From assembly GCF_023238445.1 (NCBI RefSeq), contig NZ_CP096658.1, positions 2,046,001 to 2,110,000 of the forward strand: a stretch of DNA of 64,000 bases, given 5' to 3'. This DNA comes from Halorussus gelatinilyticus. Its GTDB lineage: Archaea; Halobacteriota; Halobacteria; Halobacteriales; Haladaptataceae. A program made the position numbers and the translations under genes. Shown here piece after piece: positions 11,469 through 25,344 of this stretch. Positions within the stretch are counted from its first letter, which is position 1, and each line of letters begins with the position of its first letter. The notes beneath the pieces were generated by a model that saw only the letters and a program-made list of their open reading frames with translations, had not been told where the DNA came from and did no database searches.

Positions 11469-12086
11469 TCACTCTCGGGAAACGAGGAGTTCTGTCTCAT
11501 CGCTATTCCACGCTCGAAGCTTCTCAATGATGTACGTCCGCGCTTCTTCGAGAGTGAGGTCGCCGTCGTCGATTCGGTCACCGACGACATCTTTCAACGC
11601 TTGAAACTGGCCGTGGACGTACTCATCGTGGACGGGTTCACCGTCTGCCCACATCACGGATTGGAGGACGCCGTTTCCAGTCGTCGGAGAAGCATCGACG
11701 GCCTCGCAGTCGTACTCCAAGCCGAGCCAGAGGGTTCGGTACGTCGTCACCTCGAACGCTTCTGAGACGACGTAGAAGGCTTCGTGGTGAAGGAAGTCGA
11801 GGTACGCAGACCGAATCTCGTCCAGCGAGATAGCTACTGCAATTGGCTCCGGGTTAACTGGTGTTGAGGAAAGTCGCTCTAACGAGCGTGAATTCTCCGG
11901 AGTATCCGTACTGGCAAGGAGTTCTTCGAGATGCTCACGGTGCGATGGTGAGGGTTCGTCGCCACCGAAGGGTGTTTCTGGCGTAAGTCGGTGTTTCAGG
12001 TGATAGTTTGAGGCTCCGTTGTGCGAGTAGTGGAGAGCGTACGATTCGTCTGGTCGTTCGTAGGCAACGAGTGCGCGATTTCCCAT
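11469..12086 (-). CDS. DUF6735-like haloarchaeal protein
   Basis: 205 residues beginning MGNRALVAYERPDESYALHY, the opening I associate with the haloarchaeal plasmid-borne family DUF6735. Aromatic-rich centre (FLHHEAFYVVSEAFEVTTYR) and acidic C-terminal helix (LTLEEARTYIIEKLRAW). No catalytic motif recognised. A hairpin (TGCGCCCG/CGGGCGCA, 12110-12134) lies 24 nt upstream of the ATG. Genes of this kind commonly travel with the ArdC-like and DUF6610-like genes nearby. Confidence 0.65.
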   Translation of the reverse strand: MGNRALVAYERPDESYALHYSHNGASNYHLKHRLTPETPFGGDEPSPSHREHLEELLASTDTPENSRSLERLSSTPVNPEPIAVAISLDEIRSAYLDFLHHEAFYVVSEAFEVTTYRTLWLGLEYDCEAVDASPTTGNGVLQSVMWADGEPVHDEYVHGQFQALKDVVGDRIDDGDLTLEEARTYIIEKLRAWNSDETELLVSRE

Positions 12087-12303: not shown

Positions 12304-12645
12304 TCAGGAAGAGATGTAGCCGATTAATTGTCTCGCCACGTCCGCGGTACGTTCGTTGACGAGAGAGGTCATATGGAGTTCGACTTCTACAGCACTGTTG
12401 AGAGTCGCGAGCGCCCACGGAAGAACGTGACTTCGTTCCCCGAGTGGGTCACCCTCGTAATCGTCGTCTTGGAGCGTGAGTGACTCCTCGTGGTAGGTCT
12501 TCGTAGAGATGAGGACCGTAATGAGTTGTAAGCCGTGGTTCGGGAACCGAGGTGTTCCCAGAATGAGCATCGGGCGACCTTTGTCCGAGAGCGGGTCAGT
12601 TCCCCAGATGATGTCACCGCGCTGTAGTTCCTCGAACGCGGTCAC
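12304..12645 (-). CDS. PemK/MazF-like toxin
   Basis: 113 residues from a GTG at 12645. The motif QRGDIIWGTDPLSDKGRPML with the following beta-rich sequence (LITVLISTKT) fits the MazF/PemK barrel that cleaves mRNA. The GTG overlaps the TGA of the winged-helix gene (GTGA), so the pair is coupled. Such MarR-like + PemK pairs are frequent in haloarchaea. Confidence 0.8.
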   Translation of the reverse strand: MTAFEELQRGDIIWGTDPLSDKGRPMLILGTPRFPNHGLQLITVLISTKTYHEESLTLQDDDYEGDPLGERSHVLPWALATLNSAVEVELHMTSLVNERTADVARQLIGYISS

Positions 12646-13001
12646 TGTACTTCCTCCATCTCGTCGGTCTTCAAGTCCTCAAGATGTTCCTCACCGTATT
12701 GCTCGTCAGCGGTCTGGTGGTGCTGGTGAAGGCGGTAAGCGGCCCGGAGCCGTTCTTTATCGTCAGTAATCGCCCAGTACGGGCGCTTATGCCGCACGAG
12801 ACCTCGTTCCTTCAATCGCGAGAGAATCGAACTGACGGCGTCTGTATCCAACTCAAGTTGCTCGGCAATCGTCGCCGCCTTCCACGCACGGTCGTCGTTC
12901 TCGTCAAGGAACAATACGATCCGCTCAGTATCGTTCTGCTCCTCGAATTCGTCGTCGTCGGCGTTCTCGAACTCGTCGATATCGATGGTGCCGCTCGACA
13001 T
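12642..13001 (-). CDS. Winged-helix (MarR-like) antitoxin/regulator
   Basis: 119 residues. An acidic N-terminus (IDIDEFENADDDEFEEQND) precedes a winged helix: WKAATIAEQLELDTDAVSS as the helix-turn-helix and RGLVRHKRPYWAI as the wing. It probably represses its own promoter and neutralises the PemK product encoded next. A TATA-like sequence AAATAGCTATAGG lies about 25-35 nt upstream on the minus strand. Confidence 0.75.
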   Translation of the reverse strand: MSSGTIDIDEFENADDDEFEEQNDTERIVLFLDENDDRAWKAATIAEQLELDTDAVSSILSRLKERGLVRHKRPYWAITDDKERLRAAYRLHQHHQTADEQYGEEHLEDLKTDEMEEVQ

Positions 13002-13300: not shown

Positions 13301-13549
13301 ATGGAGTCTGACAACGCCCGCCATCGTCTCACAGACACTCTGCAACGACTGGCCCACAGGCCCACCGAATCATTCATTAATATCGACAATGTATCTACAC
13401 CGTACATGGACCAGTTCACAATCAACGGCCACGAAGTCGTGGAGGGCAACGTGAAAGCCACCGGCAACGGCGCTCACGTCTACGTCCCGAAACGCTGGCG
13501 TGGCGCGGACGTGAAAGTCGTCCGTACTTCCGACCCCAACGACGAATAG
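13301..13549 (+). CDS. DUF2080 transposon-associated protein
   Basis: 82 residues. The conserved part MDQFTINGHEVVEGNVKATG, then GAHVYVPKRWRGADVKVVRT, is the typical DUF2080 (AbrB/SpoVT-like small DNA-binding) family that accompanies tnpB in haloarchaeal IS1341-like elements. The initiator may be Met1 (13301) or the internal Met at 13406. Its stop codon is immediately followed by the tnpB ATG. Confidence 0.85.
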   Translation: MESDNARHRLTDTLQRLAHRPTESFINIDNVSTPYMDQFTINGHEVVEGNVKATGNGAHVYVPKRWRGADVKVVRTSDPNDE

Positions 13550-14758
13550 ATGAACTACAACTACAGGTATCGACTGAACCCAACCGAGGACCTCCGCGAG
13601 CGATTAGCGTGGACTGTCGATACCTGTAGACAGGTCTACAACCACTTCCTCCACCGCCTCAACCGACACGACGGCACCTCGGCATACTCCGAGCAGAAGC
13701 GCCTGCCAGACCTCAAGAAGTGGTGGACCGACGACCTGCAAGACGTTCACTCGAAGGTGCTTCAGAAGGTCGTCCAGCGATTGTACGACAACCTCTCGAC
13801 GCTCAAAGGCCGGAAGCAGAACGGCTACAGCGTCGGGGAGTTGAAGTGGAAAGCACCGGGCGAATACCAATCGTTCACCTACAGTCAGTCCGGCTTCGAA
13901 CTCAAAAACACGAGTGGTCGGACTCGACTATGGCTCTCGAAGATTGGTGACATCCCCATCATGTTCCACCGCGACTTGCCCGACGACGCCACCATCAAGA
14001 CCCTCACGGTCAAACGCGAACCCACCGGCAACTGGTACGCCATCCTCGGCGTCGAAACGCCTGACGACCCACTCGAGAAGCCCGACGAGGTGACTGACGC
14101 TGTTGGTATCGACGTGGGTGTCCTGAAATACGTCCACGACAGCGATGGGACCGCTGTCGAGTCGCCAGATCTCTCGGATGAACGCGAGCGGTTGGAACGC
14201 GGCCAACGCAACCTCTCGCGGAAGGAACACGGCTCGAACAATTGGGAAGAACAGCGCAAGACGGTCGCTCGACGCCACGCCGACTTGAAGCGCAAGCGAC
14301 GTGATTTCTTGCACAAACTCTCGGCGTACTACGCCCGCGAGTACGACCTTGTGGCGGTCGAGGACTTGGACGCGAAGGGGTTGGTCGAACTCCCTGGCAA
14401 CTCTCGGAACCGAGCCGGGGCCTCGTGGGGAACGTTCCTGCGAATGCTCGAATACAAGTGCGAACGGGAAGGCACACACTTCGTCGCCGTGGACCCCCGA
14501 GGCACGACCAAAGAGTGCGCGTCGTGCGGAACAGAGACGGGCAAACCACTATGGGTCCGCGAGCATTCATGTCCAGCGTGTGGGTTTGAAGCGGATAGAG
14601 ATGCGAATGCGTCGTGGAACGTTCTGTCTCGTGGTCTCGACAACGTAGGGGCGGGCTGTCCCGAATCAACGCCTGTGGAGACTGCGCTCCCTGCGGATAC
14701 CGATTCGGTGTCTGCAAAGCGTGTCGTGGAAGCAGGAAGCCCCACCCTCAAGGAGTGA
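13550..14758 (+). CDS. tnpB: TnpB, RNA-guided DNA endonuclease of IS200/IS605 family
   Basis: 402 residues, intact. RuvC carboxylates are in place: Asp in AVGIDVGVLKY (about residue 188), Glu in LVAVEDLDAKG (about 271), Asp in EADRDANASWN (about 351). A zinc finger CASCG...CPACG lies between the last two. TnpB is a guide-RNA-directed nuclease that cuts the target next to a TAM and promotes element retention. The last ten codons overlap the 3' guide-RNA scaffold. Confidence 0.95.
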   Translation: MNYNYRYRLNPTEDLRERLAWTVDTCRQVYNHFLHRLNRHDGTSAYSEQKRLPDLKKWWTDDLQDVHSKVLQKVVQRLYDNLSTLKGRKQNGYSVGELKWKAPGEYQSFTYSQSGFELKNTSGRTRLWLSKIGDIPIMFHRDLPDDATIKTLTVKREPTGNWYAILGVETPDDPLEKPDEVTDAVGIDVGVLKYVHDSDGTAVESPDLSDERERLERGQRNLSRKEHGSNNWEEQRKTVARRHADLKRKRRDFLHKLSAYYAREYDLVAVEDLDAKGLVELPGNSRNRAGASWGTFLRMLEYKCEREGTHFVAVDPRGTTKECASCGTETGKPLWVREHSCPACGFEADRDANASWNVLSRGLDNVGAGCPESTPVETALPADTDSVSAKRVVEAGSPTLKE

Positions 14759-14986: not shown

Positions 14987-15133
14987 ATGTCAGAGGCACC
15001 AGATGCAACGATAGCAGGGTACTGTAGTAAGCATCCTCGAATGATGGGCGTCCTCTTCACCGTTGGCCTTCTTACGCTTGAAGCAGTCGGGCAGGTGAAA
15101 GCAGGAGGCGGGGCCGCTACCGCAGGGCCGTAA
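14987..15133 (+). CDS. 48-residue single-helix membrane protein (DUF7503-like)
   Basis: ATG at 14987, TAA at 15131-15133. The product has a short polar start (MSEAPDATIAGYCSKHPR), one hydrophobic helix (MMGVLFTVGLLTLEAVGQV) and a Gly/Ala-rich tail (AGGGAATAGP). The pattern 'HPR + one helix + Gly tail' is what I recall for the haloarchaeal family DUF7503. The stop lies 2 nt from the stop of the CHAT gene on the opposite strand. A TATA-like ACTTATAGC lies near 14914-14922. It may be the membrane-acting partner of the CHAT protease, which is inference. Confidence 0.7.
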   Translation: MSEAPDATIAGYCSKHPRMMGVLFTVGLLTLEAVGQVKAGGGAATAGP

Positions 15134-15135
15134 GC

Positions 15136-17235
15136 CTATTCTCGAAGGTCGGTGACAGTGACCTCGTTGGTCCAGAAAAGTTCGTCATTGAAAATAACGG
15201 GGTGGCTCTCAATAGCGAAGTGGTTTTCGAGTTCCTCGTCAGTGACAGAGAAGGTATTTAGAAGACCCGAAGCTAGATATTGAGTCGACTGGTCTCCAAG
15301 TACTGGGTCGAACAGCGTTCCCATATTGAACGTCCGCATCGGAATAGTCGTGAAATCGACGAACCAACCGTCTTCCGCTTGCTCTAACTCTGAAAGATAG
15401 CAACAACCACTCTCAGACTGCACGAGGGTCAAACCTCCATCTCCGATTGTCATATACGAGTATCCACCGACGACTCGTTGCACTAGATCGACCGCCACCT
15501 GTAATGGAAACCCTCTGTTCAGGGCTTTCGCTAATGCACAGCCTACTCGCGTCCCTGTATTGTTCGTGATTTCCGACAGGGTCACGACGCCACCGAGGCT
15601 CCCAGATTCTACGAGCGCTTGCCCCTGAGCGTACGACCGACAGGCATTCAGGACGAATGCTTTCACTTGAACTTCATCCAACAACCGTGCGTCGAGATGC
15701 CCGTCAGGGCAACGAAGACCCTTCGAATCAACGTGGCCGATGAAATGGAAGAGGTCGGCCGAAGCCGTGAGGAGTTCCTGCAACTCCTCGGTGTCCAGTC
15801 TGTAGTGGACAGTAACATCGAATTCGAGGAGTTCACGGACGCCGTAGAACTCCTCGACAACACCTTCAGACTCCATCTGTTCGTCGTTACAGACGACGTG
15901 GATTGTAATCGAGGACTGCTCGGGTCCTCCTTGGTCGAGTTGGCGTTCGTAAGCCTCGGTCGTCGCCTTGTTCGCGCCGAGTGGGTAGCCTTCGCCGACC
16001 CACGTATGCCTGATAGACTCCGTCGATTCGGGCGTGAAAATCTCGTCCTCAGCGATATCCTGCAACTGGTGGGCAGACCTCGTTAACACCTCCGTTTTAT
16101 TGACCGACTCACCGCCACGGGTAAACTCGGTAATCATATCCGGAGTCGGAGCTGGTTCCTGAGTATCGGGCGTTGGACTTCGAATGACCGCGAGTTGTGT
16201 GGCCGCAAAGGGAAGCATCGAAACGTGTTCTGGATTAGGGACGATATCCATCGTCACCGACCACTGCGGGAGATGCGGTTCTAGTATCGAGATTGGCACA
16301 GACAGATACGCTTCAAGCTGGGCCGCGAGCGACTGGTCGTAGAGCGCCTCGAAATCGAGGCTGACGAGCGGCTCGACCTGCGTACGTTCGTGAAGATCGA
16401 CGTCGTACAGTCCCTCAGTCCGAGTCAAACAATCGAGGAAGAATACCTGTTGGAGTGTCCGACGGACGTTCTCCTCGTAGCCGAGCGGACCATCCAGTAC
16501 ATGTTCGAATCCGTTCTCAGTCACGAGTCGCGGTGTATTCGCTGGTCGTACGTCTGCACCAAGGTAATACGCGAGCGACGTCGCGGGGTAAACGTACTCG
16601 TATTCGGGCGGCAACTCGATACTGACGCCTGTCTCCGGCCGTTCGATGTCGGTCGGTGCATCGAACGAATTTCCTCGCTCGATTAGGGGCGGATGACCGC
16701 GTAACGTCGGGAACGACCGCTCGGGAGAGAGGTCCTTCAAGGCCGAGCCGAACAGCGACACCGCCTTCATCACGTCTCGTGGGTCGTCTGGTACCGTAAT
16801 CGTCCCTGCAGGATGCTCGTGGAACGACCGCGTTCCGACGTAGACGGCCACAGGATGCGGTCCGAACCCTATTCGAACGGTTGCCTCGCGGTACTTGATG
16901 TCAAGTGCGCTCTCGACTCGAAGATAGAGTTTGACTGGCGCTGTCGTGAGTTCAAGGACGTACTCGTTCCGGGGGAGCGACTGGTCGGTCTGCCCACTGG
17001 TCTCTGTAATCAGGTCTCCGGTGGGAGAACGAACGTAGATGTTCGACAGCGAGGGAACGTCGATGCCAGTGGTATTGATGCGGACGGCAGTAGAGACGGG
17101 AGCAGGAAAGATGTCGACGTCAGCGGTCATCGGGTCAACAGCGGTCGGGGTATAGAGTGCAAACTGGGCCTGCTCAATCGGGTCAAAGATAGTGATGCCG
17201 GGTCGGTCCGTCGATGTTGTGATTCGTGGTTCCAT
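15136..17235 (-). CDS. CHAT-domain (caspase-like) cysteine protease
   Basis: 699 residues. The C-terminal CHAT domain (about 440-640) has the catalytic dyad: His501 in LFHFIGHVDSKG and Cys532 in AFVLNACRSYAQG, followed by GVVTLSEITNNTGTRVG, which corresponds to the loop after the Cys. The N-terminal 400 residues are beta-rich (YVLELTTAPVKLYLRVES and similar) without TPR repeats, unlike typical TPR-CHAT proteins. No signal peptide, so cytoplasmic. It follows the RecA-like gene by 30 nt and faces the small membrane protein gene. CHAT proteases elsewhere act in regulated cell death and type III CRISPR defence; the target here is unknown. Confidence 0.85.
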   Translation of the reverse strand: MEPRITTSTDRPGITIFDPIEQAQFALYTPTAVDPMTADVDIFPAPVSTAVRINTTGIDVPSLSNIYVRSPTGDLITETSGQTDQSLPRNEYVLELTTAPVKLYLRVESALDIKYREATVRIGFGPHPVAVYVGTRSFHEHPAGTITVPDDPRDVMKAVSLFGSALKDLSPERSFPTLRGHPPLIERGNSFDAPTDIERPETGVSIELPPEYEYVYPATSLAYYLGADVRPANTPRLVTENGFEHVLDGPLGYEENVRRTLQQVFFLDCLTRTEGLYDVDLHERTQVEPLVSLDFEALYDQSLAAQLEAYLSVPISILEPHLPQWSVTMDIVPNPEHVSMLPFAATQLAVIRSPTPDTQEPAPTPDMITEFTRGGESVNKTEVLTRSAHQLQDIAEDEIFTPESTESIRHTWVGEGYPLGANKATTEAYERQLDQGGPEQSSITIHVVCNDEQMESEGVVEEFYGVRELLEFDVTVHYRLDTEELQELLTASADLFHFIGHVDSKGLRCPDGHLDARLLDEVQVKAFVLNACRSYAQGQALVESGSLGGVVTLSEITNNTGTRVGCALAKALNRGFPLQVAVDLVQRVVGGYSYMTIGDGGLTLVQSESGCCYLSELEQAEDGWFVDFTTIPMRTFNMGTLFDPVLGDQSTQYLASGLLNTFSVTDEELENHFAIESHPVIFNDELFWTNEVTVTDLRE

Positions 17236-17265
17236 TCTCTGGGTCTCGAGGAGGGGGAGATTTGG

Positions 17266-17991
17266 TTACAGGCGCGTCCAGCCAGTCGTTCCAACGTCAG
17301 GAATCCGCCATCGTTGTTCCGCAGGATTCCCGTTCCGCTTTCGGAGTTGAATTTCAGCATCGCAGTAAGCCATCAGGTTTTCGATGGTTTCGCGGTTTTC
17401 GTCTGGGTCTCGTTGATAGATGAAGTGCGACATCCCGTTATCGACCTTGACGCTGGCGCTGATGCTTGCTACAAGTCGTTCGACTTCGGCGAAGCTGTAC
17501 TCGTCGAGGAGATAGCTCAACGAATCGATTCCGACGCGGAGTTCGGCTGGTTCGAGGTCGTCACGGGCGAACCAATCGATCGCGTTCTGTAGTTCTGTCT
17601 GGAGTGCCGTAAGTGAGTTCGGCTTCCGCTCGAGCGCAGGAAGATTCGGGCTTGCAGTGGCCGGAATACTTCGCTCTTGTTCTTGGAGGTCGGTGACCCA
17701 GTTTCGAGACTCTGTTTGTAGTCCAGTTTCTTGGAAGTGGGCTCCGGTCTGTGCCCGTGAGCCATCGGTAAGAGCGAGCACTCGTTTTCGGGGCGGTGAA
17801 GCCTCTGGGCCTCCGAAGAGATTGCTACTCGCGTAGGCGGTAGTTCGTTCACCGACGGTCCCTGTCACGAGGAGCGTACTCCCGGTCTGTTTGAGTTCCT
17901 TGAGTTTGGCCTGTATTTCGTGTATATCGTATTCGTCGTCGTCTGCCGACCCGCCACGAAAGCAGACCCTTTTGTGATTCCCTACCGACAT
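17266..17991 (-). CDS. KaiC/RecA-like ATPase-fold protein with degenerate Walker A (DUF7504-like)
   Basis: 241 residues. STLLVTGTVGERTTAYASSN occupies the Walker A position, but the Lys of GK[ST] is replaced (GERTT). A Walker-B-like strand LRVGIDSLSYLLDEY is typical of KaiC/RadA-like proteins. It may bind nucleotide poorly and act as a sensor or scaffold. The TATA box TATATAAT (about 18012-18019, minus strand) lies about 25 nt before the ATG, giving a leaderless operon of this gene and the CHAT protease. I recall the family as DUF7504, haloarchaea-specific. Confidence 0.75.
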   Translation of the reverse strand: MSVGNHKRVCFRGGSADDDEYDIHEIQAKLKELKQTGSTLLVTGTVGERTTAYASSNLFGGPEASPPRKRVLALTDGSRAQTGAHFQETGLQTESRNWVTDLQEQERSIPATASPNLPALERKPNSLTALQTELQNAIDWFARDDLEPAELRVGIDSLSYLLDEYSFAEVERLVASISASVKVDNGMSHFIYQRDPDENRETIENLMAYCDAEIQLRKRNGNPAEQRWRIPDVGTTGWTRL

Positions 17992-21519: not shown

Positions 21520-24500
21520 ATGCCTACTGACGATTCCCAGACATCCTCCGGACGACGATACATCCGAATCCAGCCGACCACGGACTCGCTCTCGGTCGAC
21601 TCTGTGACGATGCAGTTCACGCGACTGCATCGCTTGCTCACGAACGACGACGACCGCTCGTGGTCCCGACGACTCGTCTCGAAGATCGACCCAGAACCGA
21701 GAACGCTCGAATGGCTGTTCGCCGCCTCACCGGCGGGCCGTCTCGAATATTACGTCGGTCTCCCCACGTCCGACGACGAAGCCGACCGAGAACTGGAGTC
21801 GCTCGAAGGACTGCTCCGAAGCTTCTTCCCCGATAGTTACGAACTCGACCAGTGTTCGTTCGACCTCGATGAGTTTCTCGGCCTTCGGTCACTCGATGAG
21901 CGTACGACCGATGAACTTGAGCGACGTTTGGATGCATCGACAGACGACTCTTCTACAGACGAGAACCAACCTCCGGAAACCCACATCGGGGCTGTCGAGT
22001 ACCGTGGAATGGGCGACCGGCGTGCGGACTGGCAGACGCGCCTCACCCCATATGCGCAGTTCCGAACTGACGACGCCGACGTGCAGCCACCGCTCACGAG
22101 TGTCGCCGAGACGCTTGCAACCACCGAGACGCTTGCAACCACCGAGACGCCTGTCGTCTTTCAGGTCCTCCTGCAACCAAAGCCCGATTGGACGACCGAG
22201 GCCGACCTGCGTCGTCGGCGTCTACAGCGCGGCGAGGAAGAGTCGTTCATGGGCCGTCTCGTCACGGGGCTGTTCGTTTCCAACGAGACAACCGCCGACG
22301 AACCTCGTGACCTCCCGCCCGAGGTCCAGCGACGACTCGACGAACTCAACGAGAAAGAGACGCGCCATTCGTTCAGCGTGAACGCTCGTGCGATCGCGGT
22401 CACCGACCCCGGCCAGCATCCGCCACGAGTCACGAAGGACCTTCGGACGGCGCTCGAATCAGTCGGCCACTCGTGCTACCAACTCGACGCCGAAACCCAC
22501 GAGGTAGCCTGCTACGGCCTCCAGTTGGATAGACTGTCCGCAGAGGACGTTTCTGCACTCGACCTTCTCGATGCTGTCCGCGAACGGACGTTCCGAAATA
22601 CGCCGACAGGACTGCAAACACGGCTTCCCGGATGGGGCCGAAGTAGTCCTGAACTCGTTGCAGATCCGCGCGAAGTCCCAAGTTTCTGCGTTCTCGGGGG
22701 AGCCAGCCTTACGTCGAATGCGAAGCGAGCGCTCGACCTGACGCCGGGCGAGCAGACCTCGCTTTCGCGGCCAGCGACCGACCGCTTGACACCCTACTAC
22801 GAGTTGGGATTGACGCTTGGATATGCGCTCACCCAAGACGGCAGGAAGGCGACGGACCCGATTGCACTTCCGCCGGACCTTCAAGCCATGCATGCTGTCT
22901 GGTTCGGAAAGACTGGTTCGGGGAAGACGACCTCGCTCATCACGGGAATGCTGGATAATTACGAGGCGAATCGAGGTCCCTCGATTCTCATCGAACCGAA
23001 AGGCGACGGGATGCCGGTCGAGTACCTTCGGGCGCACTACACGACGTACGGCACGCTCGACAACGTCTACTACTTCGAGTGCGCTGACGTGCTACCTGCG
23101 CTCTCGTTTTTCGACATTCGGCCACAGCTCGCCGTGGGTATCGACCGTGCGACTGCCGTCCAAGACGTGGTCGACCACTACGTCGAGGTCCTCATCGGCA
23201 TCATGGGTCGGGAGCGTTTCGAGCGTGCGGTTCGCTCTCCCGATATCATTCGTTATCTCGTCAAGGCCCTCTTCGACCCGGTTCATGGCTCAGACGCATT
23301 CACTCATCGCGACCTCCAACAAGCCGCAACCCAGATGGCGGAAACTCGGGATGCTCCACCGGTCACCGACGACGACCTCGCGGCCCTCCTCGGCGGGATC
23401 GTCACGAACAGCAAGCGCTCGTTCGACGAACTCCTGCAGGGTGTTCACAACCGCATCGAGAAGATCCCCGTGGACGACCGACTCGCGACGCTGTTCAATC
23501 ACGTGCCCACCGAGGACTCCGATGCAGACTCGCGCTTCGATTTCTTCGACGTTCTCGACGAGAATGCGGTCGTCATCGTGGATACGAGCCAACTCCGCAA
23601 AAAGAGTCGCCGGGCGTTCACGCTCGTCTTGCTCTCGAACCTCTGGACGGCGCTCCGTCGCCGCCAAGCCTATCGGACGACCGATTACACCCAACACACT
23701 GCAGACCGTGAGGCGGGCCACACGACCACGAGAACGGAAACTGATGGTGGACCCAACTCAGATGAACTCCCGCTGGTCAACCTTTACATCGAGGAGGCCG
23801 CCGATGTCGCGGCTTCGGGATTAATGACGGACCTCCTCGCGCAGTCTCGTGGCTTCGGGTTGTCGGTGACACTCGCGATGCAGTTTCCCGCGCAGGTCCG
23901 CTCGGCGGATACGGAAGCGTACGCAGAACTCCTGAACAACGTCTCGACTATCGTCACCGGGAACGTCGCGGTCGACCCCGACTTGGAGAAGCGACTGGCG
24001 ACCGACGAGATGCCACCGAGCGAGGTCGGGAATCGACTACGGGCGCTTCGTCGCGGCCAATGGTTCGTGAGCCTACCCGCGAAGTTCGGTGACCCCGAGC
24101 CGAGACCATTTCTGGTGTCGTCTGCGCCACTTCCGGCTGGCCATCCCGAAGGTGACGACCCGCTTTCGGAAACGCAGGCGCTCGCGTTCGACGCACTCCT
24201 CGACGTTGTGCGCGACCGAACACGACTTGACCACGGCTTGGAGGTGCGAGACCGGAAACGCCCTACTGCGGACACGACTGCGAAAGCAGATTCGATTTCA
24301 CAGTCGAGCAACGACCAGTTGCCTGCCGACGAGTCCTCCTCATCGACGGCTCCGACGACTGTGACGCGAGTAGACTCGGCCCTCCCGTTCACGAAGCGCC
24401 TCCCGACGTGTATCAAGTACGACGCTGAGACCCACGCTATCGTCTGTACGGGCTGTTCGAATCGACACGCCGCGACACGGACGGGGGTCCGCCGTGGAAT

Positions 24501-25344
24501 CGAATGCTGTTCGAGTCTCGACCGTGTTGACCGAGACGAAATTCCGATTGCGGATGTTCCCGTGACGCTCTCTGAAAGCGAGCGTGAGGCCAGCGAGTAC
24601 ACCGACCGCCAACTCTGCTTCCTCCAAGCTGTCTACTCTGCGCATCAAGGCGAGTACGACCCCGACTTGGAGTACGATACCTGCTGGGACAGCATGCTTC
24701 GCTTGCAGGAATACGTCGGTATCGAGTCTGATGCCGTTCAGGAGTTGGTCGATGCTGGCCTACTAGCCGTCGACTGCGACCATCCCCACCGTCTGTACAC
24801 AGTCACCGCCGAGGGACGTTCGGAGATTCAGGCCGCTCACCGCGAGGGCGTCGCCTATGGTCACGGGGTTGGCGACCTCGGAGAATCGACGCTCCATCGC
24901 GTGATGGTCGAGTTCGGCCGTCGGTACGTCGAAGACGCGTACGCCGACGACGCAGAATCGGCGGTGGTTGAGGTCGTCCCCTACTACGAACTTGATGATG
25001 GGCATCGTTTGGACGTGGTCGGACTCAACGAGGAGGGCGAGGTCTGTGTCGTCGTTGAGGCCGAGCGCTCGAATCACGATATTCTACGGGCCGTGCCGGA
25101 CGACTACGATAAGATGGCCGATTTCGACCCCGAGGATGCAATCTGGATCACGAAGAACCGCGAAGGCGCACACGACGTGCTGGACGCGCTGAACGACCCG
25201 CCAACTGGCGGCGTCCGAGTGGAGAAGACGTACAGTCGGTCGTCGCCACCTCAAGCGTTCCGTCTCGACGCGCCCGGCTGTACCCAGATTCACACCCTTC
25301 GATACGTCCGCGAGACGCTCCTCGGGCTTGAGCCTCCAGAATAG
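21520..25344 (+). CDS. Very large conjugation-type (VirD4/TraC/HerA-like) ATPase with C-terminal nuclease-like domain
   Basis: 1274 residues. N-terminal about 450 residues: domain of unknown role, rich in Thr/Glu. ATPase: Walker A VWFGKTGSGKTTSL (about 463), IEPKGDGM, Walker B LVNLYIEEAADV (about 750), and sensor-like LLAQSRGFGLSVTLAMQFPA, as in type IV secretion coupling proteins. Then a Cys cluster (CIKYDAETHAIVCTGCSNRH, about 963-985), a winged-helix-like part, and near 1159-1182 a PD-(D/E)xK-like core GHRLDVVGLNEEGEVCVVVE. It probably pumps or processes DNA for the element. The nuclease assignment is inference. There is no membrane helix, so it needs a membrane partner. Confidence 0.8.
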   Translation: MPTDDSQTSSGRRYIRIQPTTDSLSVDSVTMQFTRLHRLLTNDDDRSWSRRLVSKIDPEPRTLEWLFAASPAGRLEYYVGLPTSDDEADRELESLEGLLRSFFPDSYELDQCSFDLDEFLGLRSLDERTTDELERRLDASTDDSSTDENQPPETHIGAVEYRGMGDRRADWQTRLTPYAQFRTDDADVQPPLTSVAETLATTETLATTETPVVFQVLLQPKPDWTTEADLRRRRLQRGEEESFMGRLVTGLFVSNETTADEPRDLPPEVQRRLDELNEKETRHSFSVNARAIAVTDPGQHPPRVTKDLRTALESVGHSCYQLDAETHEVACYGLQLDRLSAEDVSALDLLDAVRERTFRNTPTGLQTRLPGWGRSSPELVADPREVPSFCVLGGASLTSNAKRALDLTPGEQTSLSRPATDRLTPYYELGLTLGYALTQDGRKATDPIALPPDLQAMHAVWFGKTGSGKTTSLITGMLDNYEANRGPSILIEPKGDGMPVEYLRAHYTTYGTLDNVYYFECADVLPALSFFDIRPQLAVGIDRATAVQDVVDHYVEVLIGIMGRERFERAVRSPDIIRYLVKALFDPVHGSDAFTHRDLQQAATQMAETRDAPPVTDDDLAALLGGIVTNSKRSFDELLQGVHNRIEKIPVDDRLATLFNHVPTEDSDADSRFDFFDVLDENAVVIVDTSQLRKKSRRAFTLVLLSNLWTALRRRQAYRTTDYTQHTADREAGHTTTRTETDGGPNSDELPLVNLYIEEAADVAASGLMTDLLAQSRGFGLSVTLAMQFPAQVRSADTEAYAELLNNVSTIVTGNVAVDPDLEKRLATDEMPPSEVGNRLRALRRGQWFVSLPAKFGDPEPRPFLVSSAPLPAGHPEGDDPLSETQALAFDALLDVVRDRTRLDHGLEVRDRKRPTADTTAKADSISQSSNDQLPADESSSSTAPTTVTRVDSALPFTKRLPTCIKYDAETHAIVCTGCSNRHAATRTGVRRGIECCSSLDRVDRDEIPIADVPVTLSESEREASEYTDRQLCFLQAVYSAHQGEYDPDLEYDTCWDSMLRLQEYVGIESDAVQELVDAGLLAVDCDHPHRLYTVTAEGRSEIQAAHREGVAYGHGVGDLGESTLHRVMVEFGRRYVEDAYADDAESAVVEVVPYYELDDGHRLDVVGLNEEGEVCVVVEAERSNHDILRAVPDDYDKMADFDPEDAIWITKNREGAHDVLDALNDPPTGGVRVEKTYSRSSPPQAFRLDAPGCTQIHTLRYVRETLLGLEPPE

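Follow-up and report, generated by a model that had tools for sequence, protein, structure and literature searches.

A CHAT protease gene paired tail-to-tail with a gene for a small Gly-Pro-ending protein in haloarchaea

Some CHAT proteases, Csx29 among them, have dedicated partners on which they act, and in the type III-E CRISPR Craspase the gene of Csx29 (TPR-CHAT) has a dedicated partner gene, Csx30, nearby. In the RRNPP systems, the Phr and PapR pre-peptides of about 45 residues combine a signal-like N-terminus with a short C-terminal peptide and are encoded by a tightly linked gene. Genes for a CHAT protein and for a small precursor, hetF and patX, are also found adjacent to each other. 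In filamentous cyanobacteria the CHAT protein HetF shares a pathway with PatX and PatS, small precursors of a short signalling peptide (PMC8406250, PMC9410556).

A locus with a CHAT protease gene and a small convergent gene was analyzed in Halorussus gelatinilyticus, within a stretch of 64,000 nucleotides that is called the window here. The three open reading frames that the preliminary description had placed at this locus were recovered at the same positions and on the same strands, and the stop codons of the small gene and of the CHAT gene lie 2 nt apart. Two of the three proteins belong to families that Pfam lists, DUF7503 and DUF7504. An Rfam scan of window positions 10-26 kb gave no match. 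The features of the locus are:

14987-15133, plus strand: DUF7503 small gene, 48 aa, converging on the CHAT gene (Pfam PF24335, 45.2 bits against a cut-off of 27)
15032-15040, plus strand: HPR motif of the small protein; HP[RK] or NP[RK] in 111 of 114 homologues
15041-15103, plus strand: hydrophobic segment ending in a small-x-small site (VKA), from the column profile and hydropathy; putatively signal-peptide-like or a single membrane helix
15104-15130, plus strand: C-terminal 9-residue tail GGGAATAGP, a variable part plus conserved Gly-Pro; GP in 112 of 114 profile-found homologues; tandem units in Haloplanus
15136-17235, minus strand: CHAT (clan CD, caspase-like) protease gene, 699 aa; AlphaFold pLDDT 91.9, pTM 0.92; gingipain R Z 20.6, SAVED-CHAT Z 18.3
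15733-15735, minus strand: codon of the predicted catalytic His501, invariant in 89 of 89
15640-15642, minus strand: codon of the predicted catalytic Cys532, invariant in 89 of 89
16261-17235, minus strand: CHAT N-terminal region, residues 1-325, a beta-sandwich plus a helical part with conserved RSFPTLRGHPP; fold matches weak, with Z at most 7.7
17266-17991, minus strand: DUF7504, KaiC-like and without Walker A, 241 aa, 30 nt upstream of the CHAT start codon (Pfam PF24336, 142.1 bits against a cut-off of 27)

The AlphaFold model of the CHAT protein gave a clan CD/CHAT fold, in agreement with the earlier identification. Residues 325-642 of the model matched gingipain R (Z 20.6, rmsd 2.6 over 240) and SAVED-CHAT (Z 18.3, rmsd 2.4 over 168), and the C-terminal half also matched separase, Csx29, legumain and caspases. 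The His501/Cys532 dyad, which had been described as intact, is invariant in all 89 homologues, and from these residues and the clan CD fold the protein is predicted to be an active protease. No match was obtained for it among the Pfam, NCBIfam and PADLOC models, nor in a sequence search against the PDB; the relationship became visible by fold comparison. As proposed earlier, TPR repeats were not seen, and the N-terminal part consists of a beta-sandwich and helices. A fold search with residues 1-325 returned galactose-mutarotase/YidC-type sandwich matches, none of them reliable, while the RSFPTLRGHPP segment in the helical part is strongly conserved. One CHAT gene, that of Haladaptatus halobius (L105), is split over several frames and represents a decaying copy.

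By Foldseek, the closest CHAT to the window protein is the SAVED-CHAT filament protease (E 2.7e-6); however, no SAVED domain was recognized in the window protein, which carries the beta-sandwich and helices at its N-terminus. The likeness to Csx29 comprises the fold (Z 13.7) and the possession of a dedicated partner gene. In contrast to the Csx29/Csx30 system, no TPR repeats or CRISPR link were seen for the haloarchaeal CHAT, which is near-universal in haloarchaea, and its partner, unlike Csx30, is a peptide-tailed protein of 44-50 aa encoded tail-to-tail with the protease.

CHAT relatives were detected in 179 of 194 haloarchaeal genomes (92%), representing 58 of 65 genera. DUF7503 was present in 164 of the 194 genomes and in none of the 15 that lack CHAT (Fisher p = 1.7e-14, a value that is indicative only as the species are related). 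An opposite-strand small ORF was found at the CHAT stop codon in 122 of 132 distinct CHAT loci, which derive from 79 named genome loci and further fetched loci and, having been chosen by similarity to the CHAT/DUF7503 family, are not independent. Of these small ORFs, 114 were identified by profile; for the other eight, the GP ending counted towards acceptance. A convergent small ORF was seen at 0 of 252 control genes (at least 200 codons each) from the same loci, and the co-occurrence suggested in the preliminary description is thus above chance. The reverse search, starting from DUF7503 alone, yielded a convergent CHAT gene in 30 of 30 loci. The stop codons lie between -4 and +6 nt apart in 91 of the 122 convergent pairs; in a sizeable minority of loci they are separated by 40-206 nt, and in a few rearranged loci DUF7503 and CHAT are 0.9-1.4 kb apart. 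Thus, the CHAT-DUF7503 pair is kept tail-to-tail in most haloarchaea.

The small gene is missing at about 8% of CHAT loci. The main exception is found in Haladaptatus, where two tandem CHATs lie behind one DUF7504 and have no convergent small gene (L048, L051 and L096). Seven CHAT copies are present in the window genome; identity between the window copy and the remaining six ranges from 31 to 54%. The detected DUF7503 genes of this genome are located at CHAT 3' ends on the opposite strand, further CHAT copies have convergent GP-ending small ORFs that the family model missed, and one of the seven has no partner. Beyond haloarchaea, distant CHATs were found in four genomes of one other family of the same phylum (L222-L225), for which neither DUF7503 or DUF7504 nor a Gly-Pro ORF at the CHAT stop was recognized. 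Numerous CHAT matches were obtained in two genomes, 14 in G124 and 11 in G174, some of which are fragments of a single gene.

DUF7503 proteins share a layout of HP[RK], 20 hydrophobic residues ending in AxA, about seven variable residues and Gly-Pro directly before the stop; the column profile reads HP[RK] - MIGVLFTLLLLLSQAGNVAA - variable stretch - GP. The distance from HP[RK] to the C-terminus is 28 or 29 residues in 112 of 114 members. Most of the 90 members of identical length show signal-like features: HP[RK] takes the place of an n-region, a run of about nine hydrophobic residues follows, and positions -5, -3 and -1 are occupied by Gly, V/A and A/G, respectively. The variable tail that follows the small-x-small site is of fixed length. 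As far as can be judged from sequence, DUF7503 looks like a Sec signal peptide that has a small-x-small site and is followed by a nonapeptide; alternatively, the segment may be a plain membrane helix. The dN/dS ratio was 0.14 in the hydrophobic part and 0.32 in the variable tail, with zero replacements at GP. Together with the Pfam match and the 0/252 controls, these ratios exclude that the 48-aa ORF is a chance or annotation artefact. The tail is composed of small residues and is almost uncharged (2.4% D/E/K/R), so that the Arg-, Lys- or Asp-directed cleavage of several clan CD relatives would miss its interior. In 112 members, the window copy included, an AT-rich, promoter-like stretch precedes the start codon by about 30-40 nt and indicates a separate promoter for the small gene. 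Deviating tails were observed as well. Those of L227, L228, L229 and L233 end in STIG, NGTVT or similar and have no final Gly-Pro, and at the G124 and G174 loci (L181-L202) they are longer, with up to about 45 residues past the hydrophobic part, most of them ending in GP.

In two lineages the partner differs more strongly. The Haloplanus small gene encodes no membrane segment and carries 2-13 tandem copies of a 13-residue tail, e.g. YTADGNSGGISGP. One search gave 13, 10, 7, 7, 5 and 4 units in six species, and two units are present in L077; every array ends in GP and overlaps the CHAT stop. In an alignment, the unit corresponds to the final 13 residues of ordinary DUF7503 proteins from related genera, e.g. 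VAAGNHGAISGP in Halobellus. In the 13-unit array (L109) no two units agree in DNA, yet the 11-residue core is identical in all of them, which points to purifying selection on each unit. A second partner in Halococcus (MSDS...TYSGP) has no clear membrane segment, only a weak one by hydropathy, and keeps the Gly-Pro tail. The HP[RK] motif is missing in both variants. Hence the description of the partner as a one-helix membrane protein may hold for the window copy and the 114 DUF7503-type members, all of which have the hydrophobic segment, but not for Haloplanus, where it is absent, or Halococcus, where it is reduced. Since the membrane segment was lost while the tail was kept or even amplified, what has been conserved for function appears to be the Gly-Pro peptide rather than a pore-forming helix, and its carrier appears to be exchangeable. 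Judged from this conservation, the partner's output is a peptide of about 9-13 residues at its C-terminus, with Gly-Pro as the last two residues.

DUF7503 proteins resemble Phr and PapR in size, signal-like N-terminus, short C-terminal peptide and linkage to a single gene. They differ from the RRNPP systems in that the linked gene encodes a CHAT protease and no TPR receptor, in that the two genes are convergent, and in that some forms have no signal segment. The identical tandem units behind a leader in Haloplanus are reminiscent of multi-core RiPP precursors and yeast alpha-factor, although most DUF7503 members are single-unit, and no RiPP-modifying enzyme was recognized among the recurrent, partly annotated neighbors of CHAT loci. 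HetF and PatX/PatS provide an analogy only, a CHAT together with a small peptide precursor; in that system the peptide ERGSGR acts on HetR, and HetF has TPR and TM parts.

The third gene is a common but optional partner of CHAT. The DUF7504 family profile matches KaiC chains in the PDB (E about 1e-4), and Pfam KaiC matches a DUF7504 paralogue at 3.7e-6. The loss of Walker A (GERTT) noted earlier for the window protein was observed; the view that this protein is damaged did not hold, since GxxxxGK[ST] is missing in all 77 DUF7504 proteins and GERTT is therefore a family trait. DUF7504 adjoins CHAT in 51 of 91 evaluable loci, 43 times directly upstream and eight times beyond the small gene. Its absence beside the other 40 CHATs rules it out as a universal third component and leaves a role as obligatory sensor of the system unsupported. 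The window genome encodes 15 DUF7504 proteins.

The preliminary description had placed the locus in an island with two toxin pairs and TnpB and had inferred a defence role. From about position 1 to 31000 the window has a GC content of about 0.54-0.62, compared with 0.65-0.74 downstream. This stretch contains a DUF6735 gene (11469-12086), next to it a MazF/PemK-like gene (below the Pfam cut-off) with a winged-helix neighbor, likely a toxin-antitoxin pair (12304-13001), and, just before the small gene, a TnpB (OrfB/IS605 type) that follows a protein of 82 residues matching DUF2080 (transposon-encoded) weakly (13301-14758). The gene at 21520-25344 encodes a putative coupling-protein-like ATPase of 1274 aa, whose match to type IV coupling proteins is weak. 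The window copy probably sits in an acquired or integrated element, and the low-GC setting with TnpB and toxin-antitoxin genes is its own, atypical of the family. None of six proteins matched a PADLOC model at E values up to 10, no relevant NCBIfam match was obtained, and a scan of viral contigs found no relative. The recurrent neighbors of CHAT loci besides DUF7504 include histidine kinases and HalX response regulators; HalX genes lie within 1.5 kb of CHAT in nine genome loci, e.g. L085:8433-9104. Given the near-core distribution, no PADLOC match and no relative among the viral contigs scanned, a defence role is unsupported, and the distribution together with the HalX and histidine kinase neighbors fits regulation better.

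With moderate confidence, we propose that a haloarchaeal CHAT protease and a peptide partner dedicated to it are encoded here, and that the two form a module for regulation or signalling in which CHAT recognizes the Gly-Pro tail. The peptide would usually be borne on a signal-peptide-like hydrophobic segment and, in Haloplanus, in 2-13 copies on a soluble leader. The cognate CHAT would bind the tail as ligand or substrate, and the state of the peptide (membrane-held, released or bound) may set CHAT activity, with DUF7504, where present, serving as a putative nucleotide-independent KaiC-like scaffold or sensor. The expected role would be regulation or signalling of stress or population state and not that of a dedicated anti-virus weapon. 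Against this proposal counts that tail similarity is only weakly correlated with CHAT divergence (Spearman 0.18), as do the near lack of charge in the tail, the CHAT loci that have no small gene and the few tails not ending in GP. In addition, a real signal peptide would place the tail outside, apart from a CHAT without evident signal peptide, while the soluble Haloplanus forms argue for the opposite.

It is possible, though doubtful, that the partner is a secreted pheromone, from which a Sec signal peptide is cut after AxA to free a Gly-Pro nonapeptide, with CHAT as processor or as intracellular receptor in a Phr/PapR-like manner. The signal-like profile with its fixed-length variable tail and the multi-copy units of Haloplanus are in line with such a peptide. 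Most members agree with this reading; the soluble variants do not, as the Haloplanus forms have no hydrophobic segment and that of Halococcus is weak. Moreover, no Opp-type importer was recognized beside the loci, and the disk-forming signal of Haloferax has been described as a small molecule that proteinase K does not affect (PMC12240190).

Rather unlikely is a small protein that inhibits or anchors CHAT, its tail acting as pseudo-substrate and tandem tails binding several proteases, which would be held inactive at the membrane until stress sets in. The presence of a single partner for each protease gene, the separate promoter-like region and the multiplicity of tails would suit this role, whereas the CHAT copies without partner do not. 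The preliminary description had favored a protease-activated membrane effector. In such a system CHAT would cut the small protein, e.g. at HP[RK], and release a hydrophobic, pore-forming peptide, leading to death or arrest of the cell. The basic residue conserved before the hydrophobic segment and the action of CHAT proteases like Csx29 on dedicated partners speak for it; nevertheless, we consider it improbable, given the near-core distribution, the many paralogues and at least two lineages in which the Gly-Pro tail persists, even amplified, while HP[RK] and a clear membrane segment do not. The dispensable membrane segment weakens the pore idea, and Arg/Lys cleavage at HP[RK] is excluded as a general mechanism by the variants without this motif. 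Antisense coupling alone, with mutual regulation of the overlapping convergent transcripts and a protein product of secondary importance, is in keeping with the closely spaced stops of the 91 loci but very improbable in view of the strong amino-acid constraint, the synonymous variation among tandem units and the preservation of the protein across gaps of 40-206 nt and 0.9-1.4 kb.

No literature on DUF7503, DUF7504, haloarchaeal CHAT or their pairing was found among open-licence papers. The CHAT and Gly-Pro peptide genes look like an undescribed pair, more similar to a core signalling or regulatory module than to a defence island. Caspase-like activity on LEVD, VEID and IETD has been described in Haloferax volcanii and reported also from other archaea (PMC3615174). 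DUF7503 is present in H. volcanii, used here as control genome, and the CHAT-DUF7503 pair occurs in several other Haloferax genomes, which makes CHAT a gene candidate for this activity, although the activity has been reported also for archaea outside the range of the CHAT family. We further raise, as a tentative idea, that the pair represents gene-encoded peptide communication in archaea, in which nearly every haloarchaeon would make its own lineage-specific Gly-Pro peptides, one or several in number. A dedicated CHAT would mature or sense them, and in Haloplanus they would come from multi-copy precursors. The near-core caspase-fold protease of haloarchaea remains tied to a very small peptide gene, and this pair offers named genes both for the source of the caspase-like activity in H. 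volcanii and for the question of gene-encoded regulatory peptides in archaea.
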